Source: Tetradesmus obliquus
Taxonomy: Eukaryota; Chlorophyta; Chlorophyceae; Sphaeropleales; Scenedesmaceae
Direction: 5' to 3'
Length of the DNA: 64,000 nt
Assembly: GCA_030272155.1 (NCBI GenBank)
Contig: CP126202.1
Coordinates: forward strand, 186,001-250,000
The translations under genes were made by a program, and so were the position numbers. Below are positions 1-57,390 of the stretch, piece by piece (position 1 is the first letter of the stretch; every line of letters starts with the position of its first letter). The notes beneath the pieces are model-generated. The model was not told the origin of the DNA, ran no database searches, and saw only the letters and a program-made list of their open reading frames with translations.

Positions 1-2984
1 GCTTCCAAAACCTGACTGTCTTGTCATTGCTGGCGGTCAGCAGCAAGCTGTCCTCGCCCCACACGGCAGCAGTCACGCGCTTGGAGTGGCCGGTGAGTGC
101 AGGCAGCTGGCGCTGCGCTGCCAGGTCAAACAGCTGCACCGTGGCGTCAGCGCCGCAGCTGGCCAGCAGGTTGGTCTGCGGCGCGGTGGCAGCAGCAGCA
201 ACAGCAGCAGCAGCAGCGGCAGCAGGGTTGTGAAGCAAGAGCAGGCACATTCAGCCACGTCAAACAGCTGCACGGTGGCGTCAGCGCCGCGGCTGGCCAG
301 CAGGTTGGTCGGCGGCGCGGTGGCAGCAGCAGCAGCAGCAGCAACAGCAGCAGCAGCAGCGGCAGCAGCAGGGTTGTGAGGCAAGAGCAGGCACATTGAG
401 CCACGTCAAACAGCTGCACGGTGGCGTCAGCGCCGTAGCTGGCCAGCAGGTTGGTCTGCGGTGAGGTGGCAGCAGCAGCAGCGGCAGCAGGCAGGGTGTG
501 AGGCGAGCGCAGGTGCGGTGAGCAGCAGGCAGGGGGGTGATGGCTTGTGACGCTGTGCCGACGTGCCACGCGCACATACAGCAGCACAACAGCTGCTGCT
601 GCAGAGGGGCACAGAAGGCTTGAAAGGCTGCATTACACTCGACACGTGCCCTTCCTGGTCTGCGACACATGTCAGCTGTACCAACTGACTATCTCCCTCT
701 ACTGCTGCTCTGTGTGCTGGTTACTGTCCTGCTGCCCTCCTTACAATCAGATGGGCAGGTCATAACACTTCAACAACACGGCCAGCCAATGTCACCTGTG
801 TGGGGCACAACGCCAGCGCGGTGATGCCCCTGCTTGTGTGTGACAAACCTGTAACAACACCGAATGTAGCTCTGCTTCTTTCAGGCTGCTCTTCCAGTTG
901 CTGCTGTCCTGCTGCTGTCTTCCTGTTGCTCTTTATAAAACAGATAAGAATGCTCGACGACGCGCAATCGCCAGCCAGCCGCACCTGTGTGGGGTGCAGT
1001 GCCAGCGCCGTGATGCCGGGCTGTGTGGTCTTGTGCAGCGGGAAGGAGCCCGTGAGCGTGTAGGAGCCCAGCTGCTCAACACTGGCGGTGCCCTCCGGCA
1101 CGGCACGCTTGCGGCGGCCAGACGACAGCGCCGCGTTGGTCTGCGCACACAAGGAGAAAAGCGGCAACGCGTGAGCAGGGGAAGGTACAGTAACAATGCA
1201 GTGAAGAACACTGGTGAAAGTTGCATGCTCCAAGGGTAAAGCAGACAGCACTTTGCTGCCCCCGGAGACACGGCCGCTGCAAGCGCGCCGCGTTGGTATA
1301 GACGCAGCAAAAGAGCGGCAGACAGAGAAAGCGGCAAGAGTGTGATGCAGTGCACAAGGCTGGTAGAGGCGCAAACATGTGTGGTACAGCCAATCAGGCA
1401 GCACACTGCCCGCAAGCTGCCTGTCAGATCGGCATGATCTGCTGTGCACAGCTCCTGCCCAAGCCACCAACCTGGGCAAGTAGTGCAATCGCATCATCGC
1501 AGCATCCCCAGCGCCTCCTGCCAGCTGCGCTGCAATATGTCCTACGATTACCGCGTCAACAAAACGACAAGGCAACCACACTTCCCCCCCACCTGGTCCA
1601 GCACTGCACCCATTCCTGGCCCAGCGGCCCCTGCTTACTGCGCTGTGATATGTTGCTAAAACCCAAGCCTCAACCGCCTGAACACACAGCACATGCGCCC
1701 TAATCTTCCCTCACCTGGTCCAGCACCGCAATGACGTCCTGCCCCAGGGCCTCCTGCTTGCTGCGCTTGGCCGGCCCGCCAGCCGCCTCCTCCTCCTCCC
1801 CGGCCCGCTTGCGCGCCTCAGCAGCAGCCTCCATCTCAGCGCGCATGTCCTCGCGCAGCGTCGTGAGAGCGGCACGTGCCTCGTCGCGCTCGCGGATGAG
1901 GCGCGCGATAACGCGGCAGGCAGCATCATGCTGGTACAGCGCGTGGCTCAGCTCCTGGCGCACCTGTGGGTACAGAAAATCGTGCGAAACATAGAGCGTG
2001 AGGTGAGAGCAGCAGGCGGCATCATGCTGGTACAGCGCGTGGCTCAGCTCCTGGCGCACCTGCAGCTCAATGGAAATTTTGAGACGGGGACAGACACACA
2101 AAAAGGATGGTGTGTGAGGGTGCGCGATGACGCGGCACGCGGCGTCGTGCCTGTACAGCGCGTGACTCAGCTCCTGGCGCACCTGCGGGCACAGAAAATC
2201 GTGCGAAACACACAGCGTGAGGTGAGAGCAGCAGGCGGCATCATGCTGGTACAGTGTGTGGCTCAAGCTCCTGGCGCACCTGCGAGTATGAGACGATATG
2301 CATGGGAACACGGACGGAAACGTGGGAACAGGGACAGGAACGTGGGAACAGGGACGGGTGAGGGGCCGTGCGTTAGGTTTTGAGACTGCCACTCAGCAGC
2401 ACCCACATCAGGTCTGCAAGAGCTGTGCTTGCGGCTGCTGCCGTGACGGTTCTGGACAGTGCAGACGGCTCACAGTTGCTGCAACGCCATGCGCAGTGTA
2501 GCCCGCTGACAGACTGCTGCTGCCACCAGGCCAGCCATGAGGCACCCGCTCTTCACTGCTGTTTGTGGACTGCATGACTTGCCACGCCACACAAGCACAT
2601 CCCACGGCCAGCCACAGCAATCCCTGGGCGCGGCTTGCTGCTGCTGCTGCTGCTGCTGCCGCTGGTGCTGCTGCAGAACAGTCAACTCACCGTGTGCAGG
2701 TTTTGGCGCAGCGTGTGGTGCTCCAGCATGAGTGCATCCCACTCATCATGGAACGTGCCCAGCATGCCGGGTATGCTGGTTGCTGCGCTGCTGCGCGGCT
2801 TGATGGTCTTGTTGGTGGCCAGCGGCAGCAGATCATCCTCTGTTAATTCGACTCCAGTGATGGGGCATTTGCCTGTCTCTGAGACGTAATTTGTAATCAG
2901 GCTGCGCTCAAAGACGTGGCCAGACTTCTTGCTAACTGTGGGGTGCTCCGGAACAGTGCCAGAGATGGCACACAGCATTGACAT
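1..2984 (-). CDS. PRP19: PRP19 pre-mRNA-processing factor, U-box E3 ligase (3' end outside window)
   Basis: Core subunit of the PRP19/NineTeen complex, which activates the spliceosome and acts as a nuclear ubiquitin ligase. Exons on the minus strand: 2984-2691, 1963-1715, 1140-985 and 175-1, all phase 0. Exon 1 starts at an ATG giving [15 protein letters not shown] and holds the U-box ([13 protein letters not shown], then [18 protein letters not shown]). Exon 2 is the tetramerising coiled coil, beginning [20 protein letters not shown] and containing a basic stretch (AKRSKQEA). Exon 3 is the linker ending [17 protein letters not shown]. Exon 4 starts the WD40 propeller ([19 protein letters not shown], later [15 protein letters not shown]) and runs off the window. 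The order matches eukaryotic PRP19 domain for domain. All three introns carry partial copies of neighbouring exon edges (listed separately). It is divergent from the CFDP1 gene. The family call is firm; exon borders are hand-predicted. Confidence 0.93.
259..463 (-). repeat. Two 5'-edge echoes of PRP19 exon 4
   Basis: The acceptor and first ~50 coding bases of exon 4 (CCGCAG then ACCAACCTGCTGGCCAGC, CTGACGCCACCGTGCAGCTG) recur at about 259-318 and 405-463, upstream of the true exon (175). CAG runs separate the copies. Both still read [16 protein letters not shown] before a stop. Confidence 0.9.
796..1305 (-). repeat. Echoes of both edges of PRP19 exon 3
   Basis: A copy of the exon start (ACCAACGCGGCGC) lies upstream at about 1262-1302. 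A copy of its end with donor (GGCATCACCGCGCTGGCGTT, CCCCACACAGGTG) lies downstream at about 796-832. The true exon is 1140-985. Confidence 0.75.
1495..2290 (-). repeat. Echoes of both edges of PRP19 exon 2
   Basis: Three copies of the acceptor and exon start (CAG then GTGCGCCAGGAGCTGAG.CA, CGCTGTACCAGCATGATGC) lie upstream of 1963 at about 2010-2064, 2140-2192 and 2235-2285, with intron flanks (GATTTTCTG, CTCACGCTGTG) also repeated. One copy of the exon end and donor (GTGCTGGACCAGGTG) lies downstream at about 1590-1650. Confidence 0.88.

Positions 2985-57390: not shown

Follow-up and report, generated by a model that had tools for sequence, protein, structure and literature searches.

The window analyzed here is a stretch of 64,000 nt, positions 186,001-250,000 of contig 12 (CP126202.1) in the 104.66-Mb, 17-contig genome of the green alga Tetradesmus obliquus. 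The genes modeled in it and in its flanks include PRP19, CFDP1, a Kazal-domain gene (Kazal gene A), importin-11 (IPO11), a DUF1232 gene and a helicase. Our subject is the partial exon copies found in the introns of these genes, each of which repeats one edge of an exon and continues past it into the intron. We refer to them as donor-edge copies where the 3' end of the exon is repeated and as acceptor-edge copies where the 5' start is repeated. Such copies are real, and they extend beyond the window.

Exon-edge copies in the window and in unselected stretches

Gene models were built by splice-aware alignment of proteins to DNA, using proteins from the same strain, from other T. obliquus records, from related transcriptomes and from other algae. 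Fifteen models were obtained. Seven come from the window and its 6-kb flanks (L023 and L022), where HEL_C and part of PRP19 lie outside the window proper, and eight come from seven of 20 unselected 10-kb stretches, taken at position 1,000,001 of each contig with three extra. Exon pieces from eight of the 20 stretches were queried, of which seven gave models; the pieces were chosen for a strong coding score, so these genes are not a random draw. U14, MANT_a, HEL_N and HEL_C were each modeled from a single protein, HEL_N and HEL_C may be pieces of one gene, and the agreement of junctions between proteins was judged by eye, without counting. A second Kazal gene, with a patchy alignment (36-40% identity), and an LRR gene stand outside all gene-model counts. 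The 107 introns (105 GT-AG, 2 GC-AG) share a consensus of exonic CAG followed by intronic GTGAG at the donor and intronic CTGCAG followed by exonic G at the acceptor, and the modeled genes comprise 50,197 bp of intron and 21,390 bp of exon. A 33-bp IPO11 exon annotated in the second T. obliquus assembly, OEZ85, was counted as intron, since P0003 and P0004 lack it. An ab initio gene finder retrained on the 15 models recovered 65% of exons at 45% specificity within gene spans; its predictions fed no count.

At a score of at least 22, comparison of each gene with itself gave 176 direct matches and 19 inverted ones; removal of CAG-like alignments took away 41 and 15 of these and left 135 direct and 4 inverted matches. 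A control in which each gene was compared with the other genes, scaled to equal search area, leads one to expect 0.1 and 0.2. These counts are pairwise, so that arrays enter several times. In 97 of the 135 direct matches one exon edge is paired with intron sequence (exon overlap of at least 10 bp, edge passed by at least 3 bp). The original prediction, made from the window alone, was that 5' edges are copied only upstream of their exon and 3' edges only downstream, and all 97 matches comply, on the same strand and in every gene testable. There are 59 donor-edge matches downstream and 38 acceptor-edge matches upstream; wrong-side copies, named beforehand as the refuting observation, number zero in both classes. 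The other direct matches comprise 31 that pair intron with intron, 3 that lie flush with a 3' exon end and downstream of it, one weak exon-interior match (score 22) that overlaps a Kazal-domain copy, and 3 between exons (Kazal exons 2/3 and 2/4, RCC1 exons 11/14), which we read as domain repeats. No copy bearing both edges of an exon occurs among the 135.

The copies are widespread. Window-region genes account for 65 of the 97 edge matches (34 donor, 31 acceptor) and random loci for 32 (25 donor, 7 acceptor). With one entry per edge, an exon part of at least 20 bp and a distance of at most 1,400 bp, shorter and farther copies being dropped, 59 of 214 exon edges have a copy: 35 of 94 in the window-region genes and 24 of 120 in the random loci, where seven of the eight models from unselected stretches are represented. 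Restriction to this locus, which had been raised as a possible objection, is thus not found. HEL_N, HEL_C and MAPK have no edge with a copy (0 of 38). Edge copies occur in 49 of the 107 introns, and the introns that carry them are longer (median 574 vs 278 bp). Had sides been chosen at random, the probability of the observed side at all 59 of 59 edges would be 2^-59, which speaks against scattered insertion.

Local repeats were also counted without reference to gene models. Repeats less than 1 kb apart that passed the BLAST cut number 50 direct and 1 inverted in the window. The random stretches, 200 kb in all, contain 99 direct and 21 inverted ones; a single locus accounts for 15 of the latter. 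At least one direct local repeat is present in 17 of the 20 random stretches, so local head-to-tail duplication is not peculiar to the window.

Evidence for tandem duplication across splice junctions

The polarity of the copies is a consequence of tandem geometry rather than a separate law. When a unit that spans a donor junction is duplicated head to tail, the order becomes exon remainder, unit, unit, intron remainder; the exon stays with the first of the two units, which leaves the donor-edge orphan downstream. The mirror geometry at acceptors places the 5'-edge orphan upstream, with or without selection. Wrong-side placement is impossible short of dispersed insertion, and polarity therefore marks the mechanism as tandem while making no statement on selection.

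If the copies arose in this way, the intron half of each unit should have been copied together with the exon edge, as the original prediction also held. The 20 matches at 91% identity or more consist of 17-111 bp of exon match, usually followed by a seemingly unrelated spacer. The idea that these most similar copies are non-tandem was dropped, since alignment identifies many of the spacers as the intron half in diverged form. The intron halves score above the 98th percentile of controls in 37 of 58 testable pairs (21 of the 37 single-copy), where about one such pair would be expected. The claim of copied intron is clear for these 37, with an ungapped identity of 0.82 in the intron part and 8.7 gaps per 100 bp, compared with 0.90 and 0.23 per 100 bp in the exon part. 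By neutral decay arithmetic, an intron-half divergence of about 0.18, with both copies free to vary, predicts 0.11-0.12 for an exon part whose orphan alone can vary freely, and 0.10 is seen. Most edge copies are therefore decayed tandem duplications.

The copies are also local. When four exons were searched against the 104.7 Mb of the genome, every edge-reaching match among those listed adjoined its own exon. PRP19 exon 2 and GSH1 exon 5 had no match elsewhere among the matches listed, the former finding only itself and its three acceptor-edge copies there. Among those listed for Kazal exon 4 were its own copy and one mid-exon match of 79% on contig 4, and IPO11 exon 4 had many mid-exon matches elsewhere, through a repeat-like middle part. 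This search was insensitive, missing the PRP19 exon 2 donor copy and the second IPO11 acceptor copy, and weak dispersed copies are possible.

Of the 59 distances from an edge to its nearest copy, 44 lie in a band of 86-163 bp and the other 15 in a second band of 189-273 bp; no distance is below 86. Tandem-repeat arrays in the 200 kb of random stretches (L002-L021; Tandem Repeats Finder score of at least 60) have many periods of up to 54 bp, none of 55-78 and a cluster from 79 upward, hinting at two distinct processes. Because the gap is present in random-stretch arrays as well, splicing cannot by itself account for the lower size limit, which is not peculiar to splice junctions.

We considered what random placement of such duplications would produce. 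Units of the observed sizes were placed randomly in the sampled genes, with introns shortened by one copy, and fell within introns only in a fraction of 0.42 of cases, across donors in 0.20, across acceptors in 0.20, inside exons in 0.114 and around whole exons in 0.058. Scaled to 59 junction events, this corresponds to about 62 intron-only, 17 in-exon and 8 whole-exon duplications. Neither of the latter two classes was found among the 135 direct matches. It had been proposed that only those duplications survive that splicing can skip; the polarity offered in its favor is no evidence for it, and the support comes instead from the absence of in-exon and whole-exon events. Targeting of duplication to splice junctions was not inferred from these figures, since intron-only duplications are harder to detect.

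We suggest that short stretches of the genome duplicate head to tail where they stand, usually with a length of 86-163 bp and in fewer cases of 189-273 bp. Where a unit lies across one splice junction, splicing would keep using the copy attached to the remainder of the exon, and the mRNA need not change; the other copy, comprising exon edge, splice site and intron flank, would be stranded in the intron. Duplications within an exon or around a whole exon would alter the mRNA and be lost. The orphans would then decay, with their unconstrained intron halves diverging faster and gaining indels, so that old events would persist as bare edges beside an unrelated-looking spacer. It is very probable that local head-to-tail duplication across splice junctions explains the exon-edge copies, and the repeated events that were originally proposed can be followed in every tested window gene except the helicase as well as in the unselected models. 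Splicing would be expected to ignore most orphan copies, and the duplications themselves were most probably produced when staggered breaks or paired nicks were repaired by end joining.

Decay of the copies and alternative explanations

Several observations weigh against a simple history of tandem duplication followed by neutral decay. Edges with a donor copy outnumber those with an acceptor copy by 39 to 20, an excess that random placement does not predict and that is unexplained. No copy with an exon part of at least 20 bp is identical to its exon, the best reaching 98%. In 21 of the 58 testable pairs the intron half does not rise above the controls and is not detectably duplicated. The rarity of indels in exon parts relative to intron halves exceeds what neutral decay predicts, although the contrast is in part an alignment effect, and detection through the exon part favors ungapped copies. 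A 60-bp unit, inside the size gap, occurs in one of the intron-only pairs, in IPO11. The 31 intron-only matches, themselves redundant, compare with about 62 events expected, a shortfall that we attribute to loss of detectability. Finally, the codons of the copies carry more synonymous change than they should.

This last point was examined with OYE and HEL_C left out, their reading frames being incomplete. Of 277 codon differences between exon and copy, 164 are synonymous (59%), compared with a neutral ceiling of 0.42 (p = 6e-9, codons assumed independent), and the standardized ratio of 4-fold to 0-fold change is 3.1 (bootstrap 2.2-4.2) against a ceiling of 2. Neutral decay of a free copy next to an exon under constraint would not reach this level, and the excess is unexplained. 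It is marked in copies of at least 91% identity, with 67 synonymous and 24 non-synonymous codons. Changes private to one copy, scored at 21 edges with at least two copies, comprise 58 synonymous, 88 non-synonymous and 2 stop changes. Their synonymous fraction of 0.39 is somewhat above the neutral 0.27 (p = 0.0006) and so counts on the same side. A lasting coding constraint on the copies is weakened as an explanation by the mostly non-synonymous character of these private changes. For the most part, decay after separation is near neutral, with a residue of coding-like divergence that lacks an explanation.

One alternative would account for that residue directly. If the orphan edges were still coding when they separated, many of the events may have been unequal exchanges, the alleles involved being so diverged that their exons alone were similar enough to pair; each orphan would then be the exon edge of the other haplotype, already synonymously different from the resident exon and attached to intron sequence that could no longer be aligned. 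This would explain at once why the most similar copies show a synonymous excess, why identity falls at the splice site and why identical copies are absent, and it would tie intron growth to sex or to hybridization between divergent strains. Set against it are the amino-acid differences, of which 210 are distinct: in 159 all compared orthologs agree with the exon, 41 are of other kinds, and only 10 match any compared ortholog, one of them the OEZ85 strain. The substitution levels of intron and exon parts fit ordinary decay, moreover, and the private changes are near neutral. We regard exchange between diverged alleles as unlikely.

It is somewhat less probable again that the copies are functional, kept by selection as alternative small exons or splice sites. 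The best evidence of this kind comes from IPO11. Isoforms P0001 and P0002 of OEZ85 differ by exactly the 11 residues IAVQVALVVAK, present in P0001. They are encoded by 33 bp at 49035-49067, with which the exonic part of the acceptor-edge copy preceding IPO11 exon 4 begins. Judged from these isoforms, this copy is present in the second T. obliquus assembly and annotated there as an optional exon. It is the one clear case among 18 proteins checked for extra exons, so that the suggested route to alternative exons has a single instance. A 39-residue insert in P0057, a NUB1 protein from another T. obliquus record, begins like the start of NUB1 exon 8; its reading as a translated local copy was not confirmed, and the insert matches exon 8 itself, at 20 of 39 residues, better than it matches the copy. 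The synonymous excess is a further point that function would explain, as is the retention of splice dinucleotides: 87 of 100 distinct copies have an intact one, vs 75% of control exon dinucleotides. This last excess is partly built in, however, since edge copies are defined by alignment past the edge, and the dinucleotide is lost even among the most similar copies: at the mapped junction GT is missing from those of NUB1 exon 9 and OYE exon 1, each of which reaches 98% over its exon part. Selective retention of splice sites is weakened accordingly as an explanation. Nine of the 59 best copies are frameshifted, 23 of the 59 distances are a multiple of 3, donor-side copies should by geometry have no acceptor of their own, and the 159 differences cited above fall at sites where the compared orthologs all match the exon.

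An assembly artifact, in which false local duplications arise from two haplotypes or from read errors, is very unlikely. Similar exon-like parts beside dissimilar intron parts are the pattern that merged alleles would leave, but the IPO11 exon copy is encoded in proteins of the second assembly, where the contig differs in length, the multi-copy arrays show graded divergence, and copies recur in seven of the eight models from unselected stretches. Targeted insertion, by which a transposon, an introner or a retrocopy would carry exon edges into introns, is least credible and is already contradicted for the strong copies: the spacers between the most similar copies look unrelated at first sight, yet the polarity is strict, the orientation constant, 37 of 58 spacers are the diverged intron half, and the four exons searched had no edge-reaching match elsewhere among those listed, within the limited sensitivity of that search to weak or short copies.

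Known systems and features of the locus

Exon duplication can yield mutually exclusive or alternative exons, and tandem genomic duplication has reportedly been put forward as a source of new introns by Hellsten in 2011 and by Gao and Lynch in 2009. As in exon duplication, exon sequence in T. obliquus is copied into the neighboring intron; unlike there, no copy has both edges. A review describes tandem genomic duplication as a route to new introns (PMC3443670). The likeness lies in a duplicated segment that includes splice-site-like sequence and is tolerated since it is spliced out. Intron gain by this route, however, needs both copies to be exonic with the new intron between them, whereas in T. 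obliquus existing introns lengthen instead. Among the 3 direct exon-exon matches we found no pair in which the end of one exon is repeated at the start of the next around an intron.

In Daphnia pulex, internal direct repeats in new introns are read as traces of staggered double-strand breaks that lengthen introns (PMC4202315). The two systems share direct repeats in introns and a passive trend to longer introns, attributed in Daphnia to break repair; there the repeats lie inside newly gained introns (PMC4202315), whereas each T. obliquus unit spans a splice junction and takes an exon edge with it. Fill-in and end joining at staggered breaks yield small tandem duplications, according to a further study (PMC8355091), and these are likewise head-to-tail, local and in the same orientation. 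The human insertions in that text are below 100 bp, with mammalian overhangs of about 43-50 bp (PMC8355091), compared with junction units from 86 bp here.

Tandem duplication and repeat-driven lengthening of introns are thus known; what differs here is that the units straddle splice junctions, that existing introns are lengthened and that the density is very high. What stands out is the density of the copies, the banding of their distances, the missing in-exon and whole-exon events and a synonymous excess that has no explanation. None of the literature titles retrieved names junction-spanning tandem duplication as a genome-wide pattern, which is weak evidence of absence, as subscription journals are thinly covered; a search aimed at partial exon copies found nothing within limited coverage.

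The nearest-copy distances sum to 9.0 of 50.2 kb, about 18% of the sampled intron sequence. If this holds genome-wide, junction-spanning tandem duplication would be a main source of intron length in T. obliquus and would keep a stock of preformed small exons and decoy splice sites at hand. Of the steady route to intron growth originally envisaged, growth agrees with the greater length of copy-bearing introns, while steadiness finds no support, since no copy with an exon part of at least 20 bp is identical to its exon. Occasionally an orphan edge may provide a new small exon. Such edges may also mislead annotation; the retrained gene finder, for one, had a specificity of 45%. Coordinates of the copies in the window are collected in the table.

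Table. Exons and exon-edge copies in the window genes (window coordinates; copies from self-comparison)
Gene	Feature	Position	Strand	Remarks
PRP19	exon 2	1715..1963	-	spliced alignment of P0017/P0022/P0026/P0030
PRP19	exon 2, acceptor-edge copies	2009-2062, 2119-2283, 2228-2288	-	self-comparison
PRP19	exon 2, donor-edge copy	1586-1644	-	self-comparison; weaker
PRP19	exon 3	985..1140	-	donor-edge copy 781-828
PRP19	exon 4	from 175 to past left window end	-	
PRP19	exon 4, acceptor-edge copies	254..490	-	146-bp tandem unit
CFDP1	exon 3 (5313-5414), acceptor-edge copy	5198..5236	+	97% over 39 bp, distance 93
CFDP1	exon 3, donor-edge copy	5494..5539	+	distance 120
CFDP1	exon 4 (6096-6461), donor-edge copy	6540..6593	+	distance 123
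CFDP1	exon 5 (7224-7343), acceptor-edge copy	6765..6929	+	mostly intron, 68% over 165 bp
CFDP1	exon 6 (7741-7857), donor-edge copies	7944..8187	+	
CFDP1	exon 7 (8746-8832), acceptor-edge copies	8535..8745	+	102-bp tandem unit, intron part included
CFDP1	exon 7, weaker acceptor-edge copy	8245-8329	+	
Kazal gene A	exon 1 (16280-16493), donor-edge copy	16001..16082	-	distance 271, intron part homologous along unit
Kazal gene A	exon 2 (14899-15296), donor-edge copy	14655..14700	-	distance 235
Kazal gene A	exon 4 (13212-13520), acceptor-edge copy	13688..13767	-	95% over 80 bp, distance 242
Kazal gene A	exon 5 (12467-12742), donor-edge copy	12303..12370	-	97% over 68 bp, distance 146
Kazal gene A	exon 7 (11345-11570), donor-edge copies	11129..11271	-	acceptor-edge copy 11633-11718
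Kazal gene A	exon 8 (10607-10723), acceptor-edge copy	10820..10871	-	distance 135
IPO11	exon 3 (49856-49928), donor-edge copies	49472..49753	-	
IPO11	exon 4 (48681-48935), acceptor-edge copy	48998..49082	-	second acceptor copy 49199-49235
IPO11	exon 4, donor-edge copy	48419-48469	-	
IPO11	exon 6 (47593-47846), donor-edge copy	47462..47503	-	
IPO11	exon 7 (46709-46913), acceptor-edge copies	46969..47247	-	
IPO11	exon 7, donor-edge copies	45894..46568	-	tandem array
IPO11	exon 11 (43183-43441), acceptor-edge copies	43515..43913	-	about 112-bp unit
IPO11	exon 11, donor-edge copies	42126..43087	-	253-bp tandem array
IPO11	exon 12 (41463-41677), acceptor-edge copies	41740..42078	-	donor-edge copy 41217-41294
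IPO11	exon 13 (40448-40756), donor-edge copy	40292..40339	-	
IPO11	exon 14 (39688-39927), acceptor-edge copy	39977..40127	-	donor-edge copy 39424-39526
DUF1232 gene	exon 3 (55450-55622), acceptor-edge copies	55759..56253	-	
DUF1232 gene	exon 3, donor-edge copies	54986..55423	-	

The IPO11 gene has two further features. Its intron at 50177-50301 contains a 30-bp unit repeated 4.2 times at 97%, which looks younger than the junction-spanning units. The own-strain annotation, P0003, lacks 28 residues (43183-43441) and 168 residues (45085-45612) that the DNA encodes and that P0001 of OEZ85 has, and it is probably mis-spliced at both places. On contig 11 (L012, 48-6958), the annotated protein P0068 joins mannosyltransferase-like and old-yellow-enzyme-like domains that are separate in other proteins, and it is perhaps a fused gene model.

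Elsewhere in the window, a perfect ATG/CAT triplet array lies at 28921-29090 (56.7 copies, 100%), and a large imperfect inverted repeat occupies 30017-38781, centered near 34.37 kb. The inner part of the latter, 32682-36049, is 80% identical to its own reverse complement, and the outer arms, 30017-32488 and 36363-38781, match at 61%. In the random stretch from contig 17 (L018), the same predicted exon occurs three times about 4.28 kb apart (640, 4922 and 9204), perhaps as a recent repeated mobile element.

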